Shown: positions 4,674-32,915 of the stretch, piece by piece
Position numbering within the stretch: the stretch's first letter is position 1
Layout: every line of letters starts with the position of its first letter
Origin: Acidobacteriota bacterium
GTDB lineage: Bacteria > Acidobacteriota > Thermoanaerobaculia > UBA5066
Reading direction: 5' to 3'
Length of the DNA stretch: 37,730 nucleotides
Assembly (NCBI GenBank): GCA_003152095.1
Contig: PLZI01000093.1
Coordinates: 1 to 37,730 of the forward strand
Notes under the pieces: model-generated
What the model saw: only the letters and a program-made list of their open reading frames with translations
What the model was told of the DNA's origin: nothing
Databases searched by the model: none
Program-made: the position numbers and the translations under genes

Positions 4674-5028
4674 GCTGACCTCCGCTCCCGGCCGCAGTGA
4701 GGTCTAGAGCAAGGCGGCGGATGGCCCTCCAACCGGCCTTCCATCCTCCGCCTGACCTCGTCCTGTCGGTTGGGCGCTCTCTACCAGTAGATCTTGCGGC
4801 TTAAGCTATCTGATTGATGCTTAACGGGCTGCGCAACGGTAACCATGAAGCCGCTAAATCACCCGAGAGGTACTTCGACGGAGGATTGCTCATAGAGTGT
4901 TCAATCCCATTTGACGAACCTGTGCGCCGCAGCCCCTTATTCAGGCCATTGACACTCTCCACAATGAGAGTGTCCGCCGGCGTCGTCGTTTGACCCCGGG
5001 CTGATGAAGCCTGAGCCGTCCGGCGCGT
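4674..5028. other. Intergenic stretch of lower GC, no gene recognised
   Basis: About 355 bp between the Sel1 pseudogene and the first HbpS-like gene. It is visibly poorer in G and C than its surroundings, with short AT-rich words such as GCTTAAGC and GCTTAACG around 4799-4830. I find no open frame with coding character on either strand. The only clear structure is the hairpin at 4951-4974. Confidence 0.6.
4951..4974. terminator. Perfect 9-bp hairpin downstream of the HbpS-like gene
   Basis: GACACTCTC and GAGAGTGTC form a perfect 9-bp stem around a 6-nt loop (CACAAT). On the minus strand it lies 54 nt beyond the stop of the gene ending at 5029, a plausible place for transcription to end. No T-run follows on either side, so it could equally be an RNA-processing or protein-binding site. 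Confidence 0.45.
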
Positions 5029-5442
5029 CTACTTCAGCGCGGCCGCTCCCGGCGTGGCGCACTGGTTGTCCTGCGCGCTCGAGCCTCCCGAGACGCCGAT
5101 CGCGCCGACGACCTTCCCGTCCATGATGAGCGGCTGGCCGCCCTCGATCGGCACGGCGCCTGTCATGCTCAGCACGCGCAGGCCCTCTCCGCCGGCCGCG
5201 AGCATCTCCTGAAACGCCTTCGTCGGGCGCTTGAACAGCGCGGCCGAGCGCGCCTTGTCGACGGCGACGACGGAGCTTGCCGTCTGCGTCCCGTCGATCT
5301 TCTCGAAGTAGACGAGAAACCCGGCCGTGTCCGTGATCGCGACCGCCATGGTCCAGTCGTTCTTGCGCGCCTCGGCCAGCGCGGCGGCAGCCGCCTTCTT
5401 CGCATTTTCGGTGGAGATCGGAGCGCCGTAGAGGTTAGACAT
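5029..5442 (-). CDS. GlcG/HbpS-like haem-binding family protein, copy 1 (no signal peptide)
   Basis: A 137-residue protein of the GlcG/HbpS (DUF336) family. Family members bind haem or small ligands, often outside the cytoplasm. The hallmarks are NAKKAAAAALAEARKN near the N-terminus, ITDTAGFLVYFEKIDGT in the middle, KARSAALFKRPT, and the C-terminal GAIGVSGGSS-Q-C segment. I start it at ATG 5440-5442 (MSNLYGAPI), which aligns with the mature part of the paralogue at 7140-7667; an upstream ATG at 5460 is possible. Unlike that paralogue it lacks a signal peptide, so it would be cytoplasmic. The two share the great majority of residues, so this is a recent duplicate. A TAGACT box lies about 32 nt upstream. 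Confidence 0.82.
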   Translation of the reverse strand: MSNLYGAPISTENAKKAAAAALAEARKNDWTMAVAITDTAGFLVYFEKIDGTQTASSVVAVDKARSAALFKRPTKAFQEMLAAGGEGLRVLSMTGAVPIEGGQPLIMDGKVVGAIGVSGGSSAQDNQCATPGAAALK

Positions 5443-5474
5443 GTGTTGGAGCGCCCCCAATACGCTCGGCCCGA

Positions 5475-5480
5475 AGTCTA
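5475..5480 (-). promoter_or_regulatory. Candidate -10 box (TAGACT) for HbpS-like copy 1
   Basis: TAGACT followed by TCGGGCC on the minus strand closely matches the box before the M13 peptidase gene (TAGACT then TCGCGCC at 29887). It would give a leader of roughly 25 nt before ATG 5442. No -35 is obvious. Confidence 0.35.
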
Positions 5481-5534
5481 GAACAGACAGGCGAGAGGCG
5501 CCACGCAGCGTGTCTCCGCCTTCCTCTCGCTACC

Positions 5535-7112
5535 TCACCCGCCCAGCCTGAACCAGATGAAGGACCTGGCCGTCGGGGCGGGGACGACGACCCCGTGAGG
5601 AGCTGACGGATAGGTCCCGCGAAGCCATGAAACTCGAAGATCGCGAGGCGAGACGAGGAGCAGAGTGGGTCGCACCGCGGAGTCTGCCGCGAGAAAACGC
5701 CCGAGGTCGTAGCCGCGCGGGTCGGTTTCGAAGCAACGCGTCTCCGGGGAAACAAATCGCAGCGCCTGATGGCGGCAGTCCAGCGGGGCGCCGGTTGCGT
5801 TCACGAGTGCCTTCGTTCCCGGCCTCGCCACGAGGAGCCCGGCCGCTTCCTCCAAGAACCCGGCCGGCCTCTCCTCCCTGTAAGTCAGGAAATAGCTTTC
5901 GAGATTTCCAAACCAGGAGAAAACGAGAACGACCATGAGGCCGATGGGGCCCAACCAGCGGAGAGGTGGGGTTGGCGTTCGGCGAAGCCGTCGCCACGCC
6001 TCGTCAAAGAAAAGCGCGGGAAAGAACAGAACGGCCGTAGCCATGCCCGCGAGGTGTGGAGAAAATAGAGCGTCCACGCTGAGGACGCTTCCGGCCACGA
6101 GGGTTTCGGCCTGCCAGAGAAGGAACAACGAGATGCCCGGGCGGCGGAGCTGCCTCAGCGCCAGCCCGAGACCCAGGATGAACGGCACCAGTAGCGTCGG
6201 TTCGACGAAGCCACTGCGGTAGCCGTACTGAAATGAAGTGTCGTACCCGCCGAACCAGAAGCCGGCCGTCTGCCAAAGATGTTGCGCCAGGACTCCGGCG
6301 GGCGAGCTCGTACCGGACACGTTGCGCACGTGTTCCGCTACTTCGGCACTGAAGACCCAGACACGGCTGAGCCGGTGGAAAAAGAGACCCGGCGTGGCGC
6401 GGTATGTCATCAGAAGGGGCACCGAAACGGCCCCCGCCACGAGCGCGACCACGCCGAGGCCGCGGAAAGCCGGGCGAGCCTCGGGCTGCCCCCCGATCGC
6501 GAGCGCGACAGCCCAGCTCACGAGAAGGAGCGGCGTCAGCTTCGCCCCGTCGTAGACCTGAAAGCAAAGCCCCAGAGCCAGGCCGGCCAACCCGAACAGG
6601 AAAACCCGGCCGGTCCGGACGGCCAGGACAAAAAAATAAAGCGTGAGAACGGTGAAGAAGGTCGCCTGGATGTAGATGTGGCCCGTGCGGCTGAGATGAA
6701 CGTGCCAATGGAACGGTACGGTCAGCGCGAGGAGCCAGAGCGCGAGAAGCGAAAGCACTCCGAGCGCGACCGAGCCCGCGCGCAGGCCGAGGAGGGAATC
6801 CCCGGCGATCCTCATCGAGAGGCTCGCCAGGAAGAAGCTGAAATTCGGGATGGCGTACCAGCCCGTGCCGAAGAGCGGCGGCGGATCGCCCCCGAGGAAG
6901 CATCTCGCCTCCAGCCCGCATGACATCTCGTCGTTGTGGAGCTCGGCGGGAAACCCGGCCAGATCGACCGACCGGAGCAGGACCGCGGCGCCCAGTAAGG
7001 CAAGAACACCGATGACCTCTGCGGGCGAAATCGGGTCTCGCCTCACCGCCTCTGCCACGTCGCCGGCGGCCGTCGGGTTATCGACGCGAGCGGCATTCGC
7101 GTCCCTAGCCAC
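5535..7112 (-). CDS. GT39-type (ArnT/PMT-like) membrane glycosyltransferase
   Basis: A 525-residue protein with many hydrophobic spans and a C-terminal soluble domain of about 120 residues. The first periplasmic loop contains HNDEMSCGLEARCFLGG (residues 59-75), the acidic-pair motif of GT-C enzymes of the ArnT/PMT family, which use polyprenyl-phosphate sugars. VPFHWHVHLSRTG matches the second conserved loop. The segment between GVLSLLALW and that motif looks shorter than in relatives I remember, which may mean a small in-frame deletion. The start is GTG 7110-7112. The gene sits exactly between the two HbpS-like paralogues, 74 bp after one and 27 bp before the other, all on the minus strand. 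The sugar and acceptor are unknown. Confidence 0.8.
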   Translation of the reverse strand: MARDANAARVDNPTAAGDVAEAVRRDPISPAEVIGVLALLGAAVLLRSVDLAGFPAELHNDEMSCGLEARCFLGGDPPPLFGTGWYAIPNFSFFLASLSMRIAGDSLLGLRAGSVALGVLSLLALWLLALTVPFHWHVHLSRTGHIYIQATFFTVLTLYFFVLAVRTGRVFLFGLAGLALGLCFQVYDGAKLTPLLLVSWAVALAIGGQPEARPAFRGLGVVALVAGAVSVPLLMTYRATPGLFFHRLSRVWVFSAEVAEHVRNVSGTSSPAGVLAQHLWQTAGFWFGGYDTSFQYGYRSGFVEPTLLVPFILGLGLALRQLRRPGISLFLLWQAETLVAGSVLSVDALFSPHLAGMATAVLFFPALFFDEAWRRLRRTPTPPLRWLGPIGLMVVLVFSWFGNLESYFLTYREERPAGFLEEAAGLLVARPGTKALVNATGAPLDCRHQALRFVSPETRCFETDPRGYDLGRFLAADSAVRPTLLLVSPRDLRVSWLRGTYPSAPHGVVVPAPTARSFIWFRLGG

Positions 7113-7139
7113 TTTCCGCCGCCGTGCCCTCCGACGCGT

Positions 7140-7667
7140 CTACTTCAGTGCGTCCGCCCCGGGCTTCGCGCACTGGCCGTCCTGCGCGCTCGTTCCTCCC
7201 GAGACGCCAATCGCGCCGACGACCTTACCGTCCATGACGATCGGAAAGCCGCCCTCGATAGGCACCGCCCCTTCCAGTCGCAGAAAACGGAGGCCCTCTC
7301 CTCCAGCCGCGACCGCGTCCTGGAACACTTTGGTCGGACGCTTGTACAGCGCCGCCGAGCGCGCCTTGTCGACGGCCACGAAAGTGCTTCCGGTCTGCGT
7401 CCCGTCGATCTTCTCGAAGTAGACGAGGTATCCAGCGGTGTCCGTGATCGCTGCAGCCATGGTCCAGTTGTTCTTCCGCGCCTCGGCGAGCGCGGCGGCA
7501 GCCGCCTTCTTCGCGTTCTCGAGGGTGATCGGGGCACCGTATGGGTTCGGCATCTGAGCGGGCGCGTTCGTGGCGCCGAGCACGAGTAATAGAACAGCCA
7601 GAGTTTTCGCGATCGCTAGAGCCGCGGACTCTTTGGCTCGACTGGATTTCGGACGCGGTTTGTTCAC
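7140..7667 (-). CDS. GlcG/HbpS-like haem-binding family protein, copy 2 (secreted)
   Basis: 175 residues. A basic N-terminus and hydrophobic core (TLAVLLLVLGATNAPAQ) form a Sec signal peptide ending near residue 38. A complete GlcG/HbpS domain follows, with TMAAAITDTAGYLVYFEKID, VAVDKARSAALYKRPT and GAIGVSGGTSAQD. It starts at GTG 7665-7667 with AGGAGGT 5 nt upstream, the strongest ribosome binding site nearby. Relatives bind haem outside the cytoplasm and can signal redox stress; here a periplasmic location is inferred from the signal peptide. The paralogue at 5029-5442 matches its mature part almost residue for residue. A CATACT hexamer at 7704-7709 could be a promoter element within the end of the upstream zincin gene. 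Confidence 0.86.
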   Translation of the reverse strand: MNKPRPKSSRAKESAALAIAKTLAVLLLVLGATNAPAQMPNPYGAPITLENAKKAAAAALAEARKNNWTMAAAITDTAGYLVYFEKIDGTQTGSTFVAVDKARSAALYKRPTKVFQDAVAAGGEGLRFLRLEGAVPIEGGFPIVMDGKVVGAIGVSGGTSAQDGQCAKPGADALK

Positions 7668-24694: not shown

Positions 24695-25321
24695 ATGCGC
24701 CTCGTCGCCGAGAACCTCTCGCGCTCCTTCGGACGCCGAGCCTTCGGGCCGGTTTCGTTCAGCGTCGAGGCGGGGCGTGTCCTCGGTGTCGCGGGAGAGA
24801 ACGGGAGCGGAAAGACCACCTTGCTGAAGACCCTCGCAGGCCTGATTCGGCCGAGCGGAGGGCGTGCGAGGATTTTCTTCGAAGGTGAAGACGCCGGGGA
24901 TGGCTGCGAACCGCGCGACGTTCCCTGGCGCATCGGGTGGGCGGCGCCGGATCTCGCCCTTTACGGAGAGCTGACGGCCGAAGAGAACATGATCTTCTTC
25001 GAAAGGGTCCGCGGCCTGGTGCCGACTCCCGGCCGCGCGCGCGCGCTGCTCGAGGGCGTCGGCCTTCCGCCCGATTCCCATTCTAAAAAGCCTCTCTCCT
25101 CTCTCTCGACCGGCCAGCGCCAGCGCGTCAAGCTCGCGTTCGCGACGCTCCACGAGCCCGATCTTCTCTTCCTCGACGAGCCGGGCGCGAATCTCGACGA
25201 GGCGGGGCGCTCCATCGTTCAGAAGGTCGTCGCCGAGCAGCGGCTCCGGGGAATCACCGTGATCGCCTCGAACGACCCGCGCGATCTCGCGCTCGCGGAT
25301 GAAAGAGTGACGCTGTCGTGA
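24695..25321 (+). CDS. ccmA: Cytochrome c maturation ABC ATPase CcmA
   Basis: A 208-residue ABC ATPase. Walker A is GENGSGKTT at about 34-42, the signature is LSTGQRQRVKLA near 140 and Walker B is LLFLDEP. With CcmB and CcmC it forms the complex that releases haem-loaded CcmE for cytochrome c assembly. Assignment rests on the short length and on the ccmB, ccmC, ccmE and ccmF genes that follow in order. Its GTG-overlapping stop (tga 25319-25321) couples it to ccmB. The transcript is probably leaderless because the -10-like box is 6 nt before the ATG. Confidence 0.92.
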   Translation: MRLVAENLSRSFGRRAFGPVSFSVEAGRVLGVAGENGSGKTTLLKTLAGLIRPSGGRARIFFEGEDAGDGCEPRDVPWRIGWAAPDLALYGELTAEENMIFFERVRGLVPTPGRARALLEGVGLPPDSHSKKPLSSLSTGQRQRVKLAFATLHEPDLLFLDEPGANLDEAGRSIVQKVVAEQRLRGITVIASNDPRDLALADERVTLS

Positions 25322-26019
25322 GCGCGCCGCGCCCGGCTGCCGGAATCCTCCCGGCGGCCATCGCCGTGTTCCGGCGGGAGCTCCTCGCGGAGTGGCGGAC
25401 GCGCGTGGCCGTGAACTCGCTCTTCCTCTTCGCCTTCGCCGTTCTCGTCCTCGTCGCCTACGCCGTGGGCCCGACGCGCCTTTCCCCGGAGGACAGGCCC
25501 ACCGTGAACGCCGTTCTTCTCTGGATCGTTCTCTTTTTCTCCGCGATGACAGGCCTTTCGCGCACGTTCGTTCACGAGGAGGACGCGGGGACCGCCGCGG
25601 CCCTTCGGCTGTCGGCGCCCCCGTCGGGGGTTCTCCTCGGAAAGCTTCTCGCGAACGTGGCGCTGCTCGGCGCGGTGACCGTGTTCATCGTGCCGCTCTT
25701 CGTCGTCCTCATGGGCTTCGAGATCATGGATCCGCCGCTCTTCGTTCTCCTGCTTCTGCTCGGAACATTCGGGCTCGCTTCGGCCTCCACGTTCACGGCG
25801 GCGCTCGTTTCGAAGGCGAGTGCCAAGGGCGCGCTCTTCGCGGTGCTCGCGATCCCGCTCCTCCTGCCGCCTCTCGTCGGCGCCGTCCTCGCGACCCGGG
25901 TCGCGGCCACCGAGGCGGATTTCTCGGCGGGAACCGATTTCGTGAGGCTGCTCGTGGCGTACGACGGGGTCGTCACGACGGCCGCATTCCTGCTCTTCGA
26001 CGCTGTCTGGCGGGAATAA
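25318..26019 (+). CDS. ccmB: Cytochrome c maturation permease CcmB
   Basis: A 233-residue inner-membrane protein with about six hydrophobic spans. It opens with FRRELLAEWRTR, the usual cytoplasmic start of CcmB, and has the SAMTGLSRTF.EE segment typical of the family. It partners CcmA in the haem-handling ABC complex. It starts at GTG 25318, overlapping the ccmA stop. A gap of 79 bp follows before ccmC, in which a second promoter may lie. Confidence 0.93.
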   Translation: MSAPRPAAGILPAAIAVFRRELLAEWRTRVAVNSLFLFAFAVLVLVAYAVGPTRLSPEDRPTVNAVLLWIVLFFSAMTGLSRTFVHEEDAGTAAALRLSAPPSGVLLGKLLANVALLGAVTVFIVPLFVVLMGFEIMDPPLFVLLLLLGTFGLASASTFTAALVSKASAKGALFAVLAIPLLLPPLVGAVLATRVAATEADFSAGTDFVRLLVAYDGVVTTAAFLLFDAVWRE

Positions 26020-26094
26020 ATCGGGCGCCGGGGACCGTTCCCGGGCCCGATAAAGATGATTCGCCTGCTTCAGAGAATGATTCTCGACAGGCGG

Positions 26095-26100
26095 TATCAT
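26095..26100 (+). promoter_or_regulatory. Possible -10 box (TATCAT) for ccmC
   Basis: TATCAT lies in the 79-bp ccmB-ccmC gap and overlaps the annotated ATG 26099. An in-frame GTG at 26108 is 7 nt after the box, the same geometry as at the GT2 gene (2356-2371). If it is a real promoter, ccmC starts at GTG 26108. AGGCGGT just upstream can also serve as a ribosome binding site for ATG 26099, so the call is tentative. Confidence 0.3.
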
Positions 26101-26770
26101 GCAAGCCGTGAAGAGCCTCGGTTTCCTCCTCAAAGCCCTCCTGGGAATCGGAATGGCCGCCATCTGCTGGGGGGCCTTCCTTTACGCGCGCCCCGCCCAG
26201 AGCTTCGTCGGCGAATCCTCCCGGATCGTCTTCTTCCATGTGCCAATGGCATGGGTCTCGACGCTTGCTTTCTTCATCGCCGCCTGGCATTCGGCCGTCT
26301 ACCTCAAGAAGCGCCGGATCGAGAGCGACGACGCGGCGGCCGGCGCGGCGCGCCTCGGCTTCGTGTTCTGCGTTCTGGCCACGGTCACGGGTTCGATCTT
26401 CGCCCGCGTGATGTGGAACTCGTACTGGAACTGGGATCCGCGCGAGACGTCGATCGTGCTCCTGCTCCTCGTCTACGGCGCGTATCTCGGCCTTCGCGGC
26501 GCGCTCGACGACCCCGAGCGGCGCGCGACTCTCTCGGCGGCCTACGCCCTCGTCGCGGTCGTGACGGTGCCGTTCCTCACGTTCGCCGTCCCGCGCATGT
26601 ACCAGTCGCTCCACCCCGACACCGTGATCAACGCCCGCGGAAAAGTCGAAATGTCCGCGGACATAAGGACCGTCTTCTTCTCCTCGATGGTGGCTTTCAT
26701 GGGACTTTTCTACTGGATGTGGAATCTCGACCGGCGCGTCTCCCGCATCGTACGCGAGAGGGCGGCATGA
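26099..26770 (+). CDS. ccmC: Haem handling protein CcmC
   Basis: 223 residues with six membrane spans. The WWD haem-binding segment reads WNSYWNWDPRETS at 106-118. Flanking histidines His47 (FFHVP) and the one in YQSLHPD near 186 would be the axial haem ligands. CcmC loads haem onto CcmE at the periplasmic face. The start is ATG 26099 or, if the transcript is leaderless, GTG 26108. The stop overlaps the next small gene's ATG as ATGA. Confidence 0.95.
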   Translation: MQAVKSLGFLLKALLGIGMAAICWGAFLYARPAQSFVGESSRIVFFHVPMAWVSTLAFFIAAWHSAVYLKKRRIESDDAAAGAARLGFVFCVLATVTGSIFARVMWNSYWNWDPRETSIVLLLLVYGAYLGLRGALDDPERRATLSAAYALVAVVTVPFLTFAVPRMYQSLHPDTVINARGKVEMSADIRTVFFSSMVAFMGLFYWMWNLDRRVSRIVRERAA

Positions 26771-26895
26771 GCGGGGCGCTCGGCTACGTCGCGGCGGTCA
26801 ACATCGTGATCTGGGCTGGAATCTTCGGCTACCTCGTCTACCTCGACCGCAAGGTCCGGGCCGCCTCCGGGCCCGGGCAGGAGAAACCCCGATGA
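26767..26895 (+). CDS. ccmD: CcmD-like small membrane protein
   Basis: A 42-residue protein with one membrane helix (VAAVNIVIWAGIFGYLVYL) followed by DRKVR and a polar tail. This length, topology and position between ccmC and ccmE match CcmD, which ties CcmE to the CcmABC complex. The start overlaps the ccmC stop and the stop overlaps the ccmE start, both by 4 nt. It is too short for sequence alone to prove; the context is strong. Confidence 0.85.
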   Translation: MSGALGYVAAVNIVIWAGIFGYLVYLDRKVRAASGPGQEKPR

Positions 26896-27290
26896 AACGC
26901 GCGTACTGGGCCGGCGCCCTCCTCGTCGTCGGCTTTCTCGCCCTCGGTCTGTCCACGTTCACCCGATCGATGACGCCATACGTCTCGTTCGCCGAGGCGA
27001 AGGCGGCGCCCCGCACGGTCCAGGTGATGGGCGCCCTCGAGAAGGGCACCTCGCGCTACGACGCCACCTCGAAGACGCTGCACTTCACGCTCCTCGACAT
27101 GAACACGAAAGAGCCCATCGCGGTCTCCTACACGGATGTGAAGCCCGCGAACTTCGAGGACGCCGTCTCCATCGTGGCGATCGGACGTTACGAGAACGGC
27201 GTCTTCGCCGCCGAGAAGCTCCTCGTCAAGTGTCCCTCGAAATATCAGGGAGAGGAGATCGAGAAGCAATACGGCGCCAAGAAGGCCTGA
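26892..27290 (+). CDS. ccmE: Haem chaperone CcmE, Cys-type variant (CxxxY)
   Basis: 132 residues: an N-terminal membrane anchor (AGALLVVGFLALGL) and a periplasmic beta-barrel (OB-fold) domain with RTVQVMGALEKG and the later VAIGRYENGVFAAEKLLVKC. In most bacteria the haem-binding residue is a His in HxxxY. Here the codons encode KCPSKY, so Cys114 and Tyr118 make a CxxxY motif. A Cys-type CcmE is known from Desulfovibrio and archaea, where the pathway is called System I* and CcmH is absent. The operon here likewise has no ccmH after ccmF. The flexible C-terminus is short and lysine-rich. Confidence 0.93.
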   Translation: MKRAYWAGALLVVGFLALGLSTFTRSMTPYVSFAEAKAAPRTVQVMGALEKGTSRYDATSKTLHFTLLDMNTKEPIAVSYTDVKPANFEDAVSIVAIGRYENGVFAAEKLLVKCPSKYQGEEIEKQYGAKKA

Positions 27291-27322
27291 AAGAAAACCA
27301 GGCGCCAAACACTTCCGAACAC

Positions 27323-29764
27323 ATGAATAATCTCTCCGGTCCCCTCGGATTCGCACCCGGCACGCTGGCCATCTGGGCGGCCATGCTCTTCGGAGTCACG
27401 TGCGCTCTCGCCTACTTGCGTTCGATGCGCACGGGATTCGCAGCCGGGGATTTTCTTAGAAAGGGTAAGAGGGGCGCCGGCGTTGCCGAAGCGACGGACG
27501 GTTCCGCAGCCCTATTTCCATTCGAAGAAAATCCGAATCTTCTCCTGGCCCGTCGCCTCTATTACGCCTATGTCTTTTCGGTTCTCCTCGCGTCGTTCCT
27601 CCTCCTGACGCGGCTCCTCTCGCACGACTTCCGCCTCTCGTACGTGGCGTCGTACTCGGGGCGCGACCTGCCGTTCTACTACCTCTTCTCGACGTTCTGG
27701 GCGGGACAGGAAGGCTCGTTCCTGCTCTGGCTCTTCTGGGGTGCGCTCATTGGGCTCTTCGTCCTCCGGTCGGCCAAGGAGCAGGAAGCGCCCGTCATGG
27801 TGGTTTACGTCGCGTCGTTCATCGGGATCGTCGCGATCCTCGTCAAGCAGTCCCCCTTCCGCTTCCTCGCGCAGCTCCCGCCCGACGGCCAGGGCCTGAA
27901 TCCGCTGCTGCAGGACCCGTGGATGGTCATCCACCCGCCGGTCATGTTCTCGGGGTTCGCGTCTCTCTCCGTGCCGTTTGCGTTCGCGATCGGCGCGCTG
28001 TGGATGAAACGTTGGGACGGCTGGGTCGTGCGCGCGATGCCCTGGGCGCTCTTCACGTTCGTCACGCTCGGCACGGCGATCCTCATGGGCGGGTACTGGG
28101 CCTACAAGACGCTCGGATGGGGCGGCTATTGGGGCTGGGATCCGGTCGAGAACACGTCCCTCGTTCCGTGGCTTGCCACGGTGGCGCTCGTACACGGCAT
28201 GTCCCTCCAAAAGGCGCGCGCCAAGCACCGCAAGATCAACATCATCCTCGCGATCCTCGCCTTCTGCTGCATCCTTTACGGCACGTTCCTGACGCGCTCC
28301 GGCGTCCTCGCGGACTTCTCCGTCCACTCCTTCATCGACCTCGGGATCACCGGCTGGCTCATCGGAATCATCCTCGTCTTCCTCGGGGGCGGCCTCGGCC
28401 TCCTCGCGTGGCGCTGGAGGGAGATCCCGGTCGTTTCAGACGTCGATCAGGCGACCGGCAAGGAGAAGGAAGAGCCGTTCCTTTCCCGCTCGGTCCTTTT
28501 CATCCTCTCCGTGACGCTGTTCTGCGCCTCGGGCCTCGTCATCCTGCTCGGCACATCCGCCCCGATCCTCACGCGGGTCCTGGGCAAGCCCTCGCAGGTC
28601 GCGACGAGCTTCTACAACGTGACGCACCGGCCGATTGCGACGCTCATCGCTCTCCTCATCTTCCTCGTGCCGTATCTCTCCTGGCGCGGCGAGACCGGGA
28701 AGGGCGTGATCAGGAAGGCGGTTGTCCCGGGCGCCGTGGGCCTCCTCAGCGTCGGGGTCTTCTTCGCCGCCGGCGTGCGCGGGTTCGGCGACCTTCTGAT
28801 CCTCGGTCTCGCGGTGGCCGGATTCGTCGCGAACGCCGGGACCGCAATCCTCTTCGTGAGGCGAAAGGCCGTCACGACCATGGGCGGCTACCTCGCGCAC
28901 ATCGGGATGTCCATCATGCTCGTCGGCATCCTCGTGTCGGGCGTCTACGAGAAAAAGACAACGGTGAACCTCATCAGAAATCAGCCCATGACCGTCGGAA
29001 GGAACACGCTGACCTTCACACGCACGGTCTTCGTGACGGAGAGCGGCGAGGTGAAGCGCTTCGACGAGCTGAACGCGTTGAGCCTCTCCGACCGCCGCGC
29101 CAAGCAGGCGATGGAGGTCGAAGTGACCTCGCCGGGCGGCTCGGTCTGGAAGGCCTACCCGAAGCTCTTCACGAACGCGCGCACGAACCAGATGATGGCG
29201 AACCCGGACGTGAAGTCCTCGCCGCTCATGGACCTTTACCTCTCGCCACAGTCCTACGACCCGGGCCAGCCGGCGCGCATCGAGGGCACGACCGTCACGA
29301 TGAAGAAGGGCGAGTCGAAGACCGTCGAGGGCGTAAAGGTGAAGTTCCTCGACTTCTCGGCCGACCGCTCGCAGGTCTCGTCGGACCGCCCGCGCGTGAC
29401 GGTGACGGGCAACTTCCTCGTGACGACCGCGGAGGTCTCGGAAGAAAAGACGGCAAAGCTCGTCATGTACTTCGGCGGAGGCGCACCGGAGTCCTCGACC
29501 GAGTCGCCGGAAACGCCTCTTCCCGGCAAGGGCCGCCTGAAACTCCGCCGCGTGTCGCCGAACGAAGGCACGTGCGAGCTCGAGCTTCTCGGCCTCTCTC
29601 CGGGGAGCGACCTGAAGCCCGCAACCGGCGAGACGTTCTCGGTGGACCTCACGACGAAGCCGCTCATCTCGCTCGTGTGGGGAGGCTTCTACGTGATGAT
29701 GGCCGGAGGCATCACGGCCCTCCTGCGCCGCGCCCGCGACTCACGCCAGGCGGCGATCGTGTAG
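27323..29764 (+). CDS. ccmF: Haem lyase CcmF
   Basis: An 813-residue membrane protein with about fifteen hydrophobic spans. The WWD domain is WGGYWGWDPVENTSLVPW at 266-283, and conserved haem-ligand histidines include His204 in IHPP. A large periplasmic domain lies at about 560-785, followed by a final membrane span (LVWGGFYVMMAGG). CcmF attaches haem to apocytochrome c, normally with CcmH and CcmI, neither of which is encoded here. An in-frame ATG at 27230 would add 31 residues overlapping ccmE; I prefer ATG 27323 because MNNLSGPLGFAPGTLAIW matches a first periplasmic end and membrane helix. The ribosome binding site is weak. Confidence 0.95.
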   Translation: MNNLSGPLGFAPGTLAIWAAMLFGVTCALAYLRSMRTGFAAGDFLRKGKRGAGVAEATDGSAALFPFEENPNLLLARRLYYAYVFSVLLASFLLLTRLLSHDFRLSYVASYSGRDLPFYYLFSTFWAGQEGSFLLWLFWGALIGLFVLRSAKEQEAPVMVVYVASFIGIVAILVKQSPFRFLAQLPPDGQGLNPLLQDPWMVIHPPVMFSGFASLSVPFAFAIGALWMKRWDGWVVRAMPWALFTFVTLGTAILMGGYWAYKTLGWGGYWGWDPVENTSLVPWLATVALVHGMSLQKARAKHRKINIILAILAFCCILYGTFLTRSGVLADFSVHSFIDLGITGWLIGIILVFLGGGLGLLAWRWREIPVVSDVDQATGKEKEEPFLSRSVLFILSVTLFCASGLVILLGTSAPILTRVLGKPSQVATSFYNVTHRPIATLIALLIFLVPYLSWRGETGKGVIRKAVVPGAVGLLSVGVFFAAGVRGFGDLLILGLAVAGFVANAGTAILFVRRKAVTTMGGYLAHIGMSIMLVGILVSGVYEKKTTVNLIRNQPMTVGRNTLTFTRTVFVTESGEVKRFDELNALSLSDRRAKQAMEVEVTSPGGSVWKAYPKLFTNARTNQMMANPDVKSSPLMDLYLSPQSYDPGQPARIEGTTVTMKKGESKTVEGVKVKFLDFSADRSQVSSDRPRVTVTGNFLVTTAEVSEEKTAKLVMYFGGGAPESSTESPETPLPGKGRLKLRRVSPNEGTCELELLGLSPGSDLKPATGETFSVDLTTKPLISLVWGGFYVMMAGGITALLRRARDSRQAAIV

Positions 29765-31972: not shown

Positions 31973-32731
31973 TCAGAACCCCTTGACCGTCGCGGCCTTC
32001 TTGTACATCCAGTACGTGAAGCCCCAGCCGAGGAGCACGACGACGGGCAGCGCCCATTCGTAGCTCGCGGCCCACGTCGCGTGCTGGGCCATCATCGTGA
32101 AGATGAGCGGCACGGACATGTACGTGTTGTGCTTGCTGCGGAGGCCCGCCATCGCGGCGACCGCCGGGTCCGGCTTCTCGCCGTTCTTCGTGGCCGTGAT
32201 GATCTTCTTCTGCGCGGGCCAGATCCGCATCCAGACGTTCGCGGCCATGATCGTCCCGAACATCGCGCCGAGGTGGATCGCCGTGCCGCGGAACCCGAAG
32301 CCGCCGAAGTGCGAGAAGAAGAGCACGGCCGCCGTGGCGACGACGAGGCCGAGCCAGAAATGGACCTCGGTCTTCGCGATCGCCTTCGCGAGCGGGTCGT
32401 AGACCGCAAAGAAGAGGAGCGCCACGAGGACGGCGATGCCGCCCGTCCCCCACGTCTTCACCGCCGGGTCTTTGAAGAGGAGGCCGGTGTTGTAGTAGAC
32501 GAGGCCGAGGAGCACGAGCCCGGTGATCCACGTCCAGGCGGCGCCCCAGCGGAACACCCACAGCGCGCGCGGCATCAGCTCGGGAACGACCTTCCTCTTC
32601 GTGTCCCCGTCCATCGTGGGAACGAAGTTCGAGTTCACGAAGTTGAAGAACCAGAGATGGCCGATCCAGAGGACGCCCGCGATGATGTGCGCCCACCGGA
32701 ACAGCGATTCAAGAAGATTCATGCTGTCCAT
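31973..32731 (-). CDS. Multipass membrane protein resembling the PuuD/urate oxidase N-terminal membrane domain
   Basis: A 252-residue protein with about seven or eight hydrophobic spans. The opening RWAHIIAGVLWIGHLWFFNFVN and the downstream VHFWLGL and HLGAMFGTIMAANVWMRIWP resemble the membrane domain of PuuD-type urate hydroxylases (Urate_ox_N), with histidines inside the membrane suggesting haem ligands. The cytochrome c domain that PuuD proteins carry at their C-terminus is absent, so this is a stand-alone membrane domain of unknown reaction. The start is ATG 32729-32731 with GGAGGT 4 nt ahead, although open sequence continues upstream. It is convergent with the M13 gene, 23 bp apart. Confidence 0.7.
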   Translation of the reverse strand: MDSMNLLESLFRWAHIIAGVLWIGHLWFFNFVNSNFVPTMDGDTKRKVVPELMPRALWVFRWGAAWTWITGLVLLGLVYYNTGLLFKDPAVKTWGTGGIAVLVALLFFAVYDPLAKAIAKTEVHFWLGLVVATAAVLFFSHFGGFGFRGTAIHLGAMFGTIMAANVWMRIWPAQKKIITATKNGEKPDPAVAAMAGLRSKHNTYMSVPLIFTMMAQHATWAASYEWALPVVVLLGWGFTYWMYKKAATVKGF

Positions 32732-32756
32732 GAACACCTCCATTAATTGAGACTGG

Positions 32757-32762
32757 ATCTTA
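32757..32762 (-). promoter_or_regulatory. Candidate -10 box (TAAGAT)
   Basis: TAAGAT on the minus strand lies 25 nt before the ATG of the multipass membrane protein gene, leaving room for its GGAGGT ribosome binding site. No -35 is evident. Confidence 0.3.
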
Positions 32763-32915
32763 GCAGCCGTCCGGGGACGCGACATCCGGCCGGCGTTTGA
32801 CGGACGCCCGCGCTTTCCCTACACCGGCAACGCCCCACGCGGGCCGCTCCATCCCCGCCTCCAGAATGGCTCTGTGCTGGCCGAAAAGGCGTCTCCGAGC
32901 GCCGGGTCCCGCCTC

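Follow-up and report, generated by a model that had tools for sequence, protein, structure and literature searches.

The ccmABCD-E-F operon described here, from an Acidobacteriota bacterium of the class Thermoanaerobaculia, probably encodes a complete and working cytochrome c maturation system of the System I* kind, in which the synthase is modified: the periplasmic beta-domain of CcmF is followed by what is evidently a second copy of itself. Across the genomes surveyed in two phyla, it is this doubled domain, rather than the cysteine of CcmE, that tracks the absence of CcmH. The System I* kind is already published; neither the doubled cap nor its exclusion of CcmH was found in the open-access literature searched, mostly titles and abstracts. 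The finding bears on an open question in haem biology, namely the role of CcmH and how System I* and the archaea manage without it, and it offers a concrete candidate for a CcmH replacement that can be addressed as one domain.

The window, that is the whole stretch of 37,730 nucleotides that was analysed, is contig C175 of a genome of 3.64 Mb in 182 contigs, which is 99.3% complete. The operon occupies positions 24695-29764 of the forward strand, and its genes and the elements discussed below are the following:

24695-25321, forward strand: ccmA, ABC ATPase of the haem exporter, adjoining ccmB (ABC_tran 3.8e-26; TIGR01189 ccmA 108 bits, below cut-off)
25318-26019, forward strand: ccmB (PF03379 CcmB 81.7 bits, cut-off 24.9)
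26099-26770, forward strand: ccmC, WWD-domain haem handler (PF01578 101 bits; TIGR01191 ccmC 7.9e-33)
26767-26895, forward strand: ccmD-like gene, 42 aa with one transmembrane helix (TIGR04391 34.4 bits, cut-off 24)
26892-27290, forward strand: ccmE of the Cys type (CPSKY), 132 aa (PF03100 69.3 bits, cut-off 24.6)
27231-27245, forward strand: C-P-S-K-Y motif of CcmE; codon of Cys114, the presumed haem-binding residue, at 27231-27233 and of Tyr118 at 27243-27245
27323-29764, forward strand: ccmF, cytochrome c synthase subunit, 813 aa, best start ATG 27323 (PF01578 110 bits; CcmF_C 64.6 bits)
28121-28144, forward strand: WWD motif GGYWGWDP of CcmF (sequence comparison)
28940-29242, forward strand: ordinary CcmF periplasmic beta-domain, residues 540-640 (alignment; model pLDDT 77 over residues 540-782)
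29243-29641, forward strand: insert at residues 641-773, a further copy of that beta-domain, not present in His-type or ordinary CcmF (hhalign to the ordinary domain)

Behind ccmF lie an M13 peptidase gene and then a gene for a Urate_ox_N membrane protein; the latter (31973-32785, reverse strand) encodes 270 aa and apparently does without the C-terminal cytochrome c part. Elsewhere in the window two similar GlcG/HbpS-like proteins, which look like paralogues, are encoded on the reverse strand at 5029-5460 and 7140-7667, and a membrane protein gene (5535-7112, reverse strand) sits between them.

A preliminary description of this DNA had read the operon as System I*, with a cysteine and a tyrosine in CPSKY in place of the usual HxxxY of CcmE. 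The stretch around Cys114 and Tyr118 reads LLVKCPSKYQGEE, and its CPSKY aligns with the His130/Tyr134 motif of the E. coli CcmE. This motif is the commonest one of Cys-type CcmE (PMC3601427). A genome-wide search gave a single copy of CcmE, whose closest named relatives, 87-91% identical, come from Acidobacteriota MAGs, and a search of the PDB retrieved an 80-residue stretch of the D. vulgaris CcmE. The retention of CcmABC and of a CcmD-like protein, also part of that description, is borne out by the profile matches, including a CcmD-like match above the TIGR04391 cut-off.

We then have to consider which maturation parts are missing. Genome-wide searches gave no match for CcmH (PF03918), CcmI (TIGR03142) or ResB (PF05140), each of which was found in control genomes; thus the operon does end after ccmF without the CcmH and CcmI partners, as had been proposed, and the counter-case named at the time, a His-type ccmE together with ccmH at some other place in this genome, does not occur. 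The genome accordingly has neither the His-type CcmE with CcmH of classical System I nor the ResB/CcsB of System II. An unassembled gap could hide ccmH or a second ccm locus, the genome being in 182 contigs, and we regard this as very improbable given the completeness of the assembly, the absence of CcmH from all 70 Cys-type genomes of the class and the fact that the sampled relatives share no gene behind ccmF. The claim that CcmG is missing holds for the operon: none was found in or beside it here or at 69 loci of the class, and those loci have neither a gene nor a WCxxC reading frame in common behind ccmF. For the genome as a whole the claim is only half settled: several unlinked TlpA-like redoxins with WCxxC occur, one of which (C2:25466-25852, WCGPC) has an N-terminal hydrophobic stretch and looks membrane-anchored. 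Moreover, a full-length DsbD (contig C132, WCLPC) is present, and there are 17 Cytochrome_CBB3 matches with CXXCH, including a CoxB fusion and multihaem proteins, so that a substrate for maturation exists. With the Cys-type CcmE, the absent CcmH and an operon without CcmG, the evidence supports assigning these Acidobacteriota genes to System I*, a kind already published.

These redoxins raise the question of whether the system is only apparently reduced, the work of CcmH and CcmG being done by an unrelated protein encoded elsewhere, such as a membrane-anchored TlpA-like thioredoxin. DsbD and the redoxins, above all the one with WCGPC and a hydrophobic N-terminus, would suit such a role, but no gene of this kind is linked to the operon in the 69 loci of the class, TlpA-like proteins are common and do not point to CcmH, and System I* functions in a foreign host with no partner added (PMC3601427). 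We consider this explanation unlikely.

Within the class, CcmE is present in 130 of 139 genomes and CcmH, above cut-off, in 58. The CcmE motif could be read in 108 genomes, 70 of the Cys type, in all of which CPSKY is unvarying, and 38 of the His type. CcmH above cut-off is found in none of the 70 and in 37 of the 38, the exception being G376, where a contig end interrupts the sequence (Fisher p = 3e-28, although relatedness means that the genomes do not count as independent). The three CcmH matches below cut-off in Cys-type genomes turned out to be PilC/GspF proteins. Both modules occur within each of the families f11, f82, f84 and f86, and no surveyed genome has both, which indicates that whole modules are exchanged; the alternation suggests that the operon has been swapped repeatedly as a unit, or else that contigs were mis-binned, which could explain single cases. 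For example, two genomes of one genus, G238 and G395, alternate between the His-type and the Cys-type module.

The cysteine of CcmE by itself is not a predictor of absent CcmH. In the sampled Acidobacteriota outside the class a Cys-type CcmE is the rule, and CcmH is present in 33 of the 56 genomes that have one; a 2011 review likewise found that about one third of bacteria with Cys-type CcmE retain CcmH (PMC3601427). This is a correction to the preliminary description, which had set the two features side by side. The CcmH paired with Cys-type CcmE outside the class usually carries C-x-C-G-(x)-C...C-x-C and not LRCxxC, and its gene directly follows ccmF, or the protein forms the C-terminal part of CcmF-CcmH fusions of 826-854 aa. 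Loci with this variant motif are L172-L191, L193, L195, L197, L205, L206, L210 and L211, with fusion to CcmF in several genomes.

The feature that does separate the two kinds of operon lies in CcmF. The window protein matches the Thermus CcmF (6zmq) at 5e-62, contains both domains of the family, Cytochrom_C_asm and CcmF_C (110 and 64.6 bits), and retains His204, His335 and His526. Its cap, measured from the His of AHxG to the last helix, is 255 residues long, and the 68 Cys-type CcmFs measured in the class all fall between 221 and 334; the cap has 117-120 residues in 11 His-type CcmFs of the class and, in 30 Cys-type CcmFs accompanied by CcmH, 116-125, apart from three with 172-174. The extra sequence enters at a single point, behind the DLYxSP strand, and aligns with the ordinary CcmF periplasmic domain over 93 columns (hhalign E = 3.8e-10), where CcmE and CcmH as controls gave 0.08-0.3 and column-shuffled profiles 0.2 or worse. 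By this profile alignment, the insert is a second copy of CcmF's own periplasmic beta-domain. Families f7 and f12 (e.g. L088, L086, L115) have a third tandem copy, with E = 5e-23 between copies. A full-length CcmF with a large periplasmic domain had been described as retained; full length and domain are indeed there, and the domain is not simply kept but enlarged.

A model of residues 540-782 (pLDDT 77) contains two beta-domains of similar strand order. Compared with the PDB, this model gave no convincing solved-structure match for the cap, the best being a weak one to CcsBA 7s9y (E = 0.007, TM 0.24); the model of the whole protein is of low quality (pLDDT 58), yet it matches the Thermus CcmF. 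Two other identities for the insert were considered. It is not a fused CcmH, because it matches the CcmF cap and not CcmH, and true CcmF-CcmH fusions elsewhere place CcmH behind the last helix. Nor is a ResB domain supported, since the ResB match of 0.0026 falls on the preceding helix. One haloarchaeal CcmF, from Natronorubrum, is enlarged too, by an unrelated insert at another position; this CcmF is encoded at 4926-7262 of the N. bangense plasmid NZ_CP031306.1 (L267), its large periplasmic insert being unlike that of the window. The annotated archaeal CcmE of the same plasmid (198-653) is without CPSKY and reads TVRAHEGEH.

The association extends to a second phylum. The CcmF of a member of the Halobacteroidaceae (L035) also has the insert, and no CcmH is found in its genome. 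In its phylum, Bacillota, 75 of 398 genomes have CcmF; the 19 best matches all have the insert, and CcmH lies within 1.5 kb of none of them but next to 8 of 11 ordinary CcmFs, this search having covered the surroundings of ccmF and, for G403, the whole genome (none). All the CcmEs found beside either kind of Bacillota CcmF are of the Cys type. In a tree of the CcmF core, which leaves out the periplasmic domain, doubled and ordinary forms are split with support 100, the window CcmF groups with the Cys-CcmE systems of Bacillota, and the doubled clade of Acidobacteriota (support 91) is nested within the Bacillota ones. As a consequence of this nesting, the doubled CcmF looks like one subfamily that was brought into Thermoanaerobaculia by horizontal transfer. 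Because all the doubled CcmFs fall in one clade, their link with absent CcmH may rest on one evolutionary event despite the many genomes.

This leads to the main alternative, in which a Cys-type CcmE and CcmF suffice, as in any System I*, and the extra domain is baggage of the lineage with no role or with another one, such as CcmE docking, stability or the handling of multihaem substrates. The single clade agrees with it, as do Desulfovibrio and M. acetivorans, which do without CcmH (PMC3601427, PMC9084895), and several Acidobacteriota families, f14 and f40 among them, that have a CcmF of ordinary size and no detected CcmH; a doubled cap is thus not required to dispense with CcmH. It fits less well with the absence of CcmH from all of the roughly 87 doubled CcmFs examined, with the many Cys-CcmE systems that retain CcmH beside a single-domain CcmF, and with the renewed rise in copy number to three in two families, which suggests selection. 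We hold this alternative to be a serious but less probable one. The doubled cap is a better guide than the cysteine of CcmE to whether an operon has CcmH, and as a marker it would aid the annotation of cytochrome maturation in two large uncultured groups.

The explanation that we mildly favour as a whole is that the extra beta-domain stands in for CcmH and CcmI within a working System I*. CcmABCD would move haem outward and onto CcmE, which would hold it through Cys114, with Tyr118 as the likely axial ligand, and pass it on to CcmF at the WWD/His site. CcmF would then operate without CcmH or CcmI because the cap above its haem site is doubled: the extra copy would widen the periplasmic chamber and hold the unfolded CXXCH peptide, which is the scaffold role of CcmH/I in System I. 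Of the two tasks of CcmH, reducing the thiols of CXXCH and helping to hold the acceptor, only the second could be taken over by the insert, which is nearly free of Cys and contains no CXXC. DsbD, together with a redoxin that is presumably a general TlpA-like thioredoxin, would have to reduce the thiols. The more general proposal, that doubling or tripling of the cap has made the CcmF subfamily of Thermoanaerobaculia and of part of Bacillota a stand-alone synthase with no need of CcmH or CcmI, is put forward more tentatively, and we stop a little short of favouring it. If true, such a CcmF would be a one-protein counterpart of CcmFH, working more like the CcsBA chamber, with which a published account has already compared the CcmF beta-domain, seen there as capping the haem site (PMC10663686).

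System I* is known from Desulfovibrio desulfuricans and D. vulgaris and from archaea (Allen 2006, Goddard 2010; reviewed in PMC3601427), where Cys-type CcmE occurs without CcmH; this absence is usual but not strict, CcmI is variable, being helpful and not absolutely required, and the Desulfovibrio operon functions in E. coli without CcmG/H (PMC3601427). The window operon shares with these systems the Cys-type CcmE with CPSKY, CcmABC, CcmF and the lack of CcmH and of an operon-encoded CcmG, and, like the bacterial members, it retains CcmD; it differs by the tandem second periplasmic beta-domain of CcmF (and a third in relatives), a comparison drawn, for these systems, with the single haloarchaeal CcmF from Natronorubrum. 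With classical System I, that of E. coli and of the His-type operons of the class, it has in common CcmABCD export and the WWD motif and haem-ligand His of CcmF, whereas classical System I has a His-type CcmE, CcmH and a single-domain CcmF, whose core is split from the window type with support 100. System II (CcsBA/ResBC) resembles it in having a synthase without need of CcmH and a beta-stranded chamber over the haem site, but the window genome is without ResB, haem arrives through CcmE and the synthase is CcmF. A MAG of Dethiobacter sp. (L036:5888-10584) presents another combination, ccmA-ccmB-ccmC-ccmE (Cys type, CPSKY) followed directly by resB (PF05140, 164 bits), a ccsA/resC-like gene and hemA, in which the haem export and CcmE of System I are joined to the synthase of System II; its genome has a separate ccmF-ccmH-ccmI-like locus on L233. 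Finally, in Methanosarcina the Cys of CXXXY is required and CcmABCEF is sufficient (eLife 2022, PMC9084895). The M. acetivorans system is like that of the window in its Cys-type CcmE, which is required there for haem binding, and in having no CcmH/I; it differs in being archaeal, in lacking CcmD and in a CcmF that is split into CcmF1 and CcmF2 (PMC9084895).
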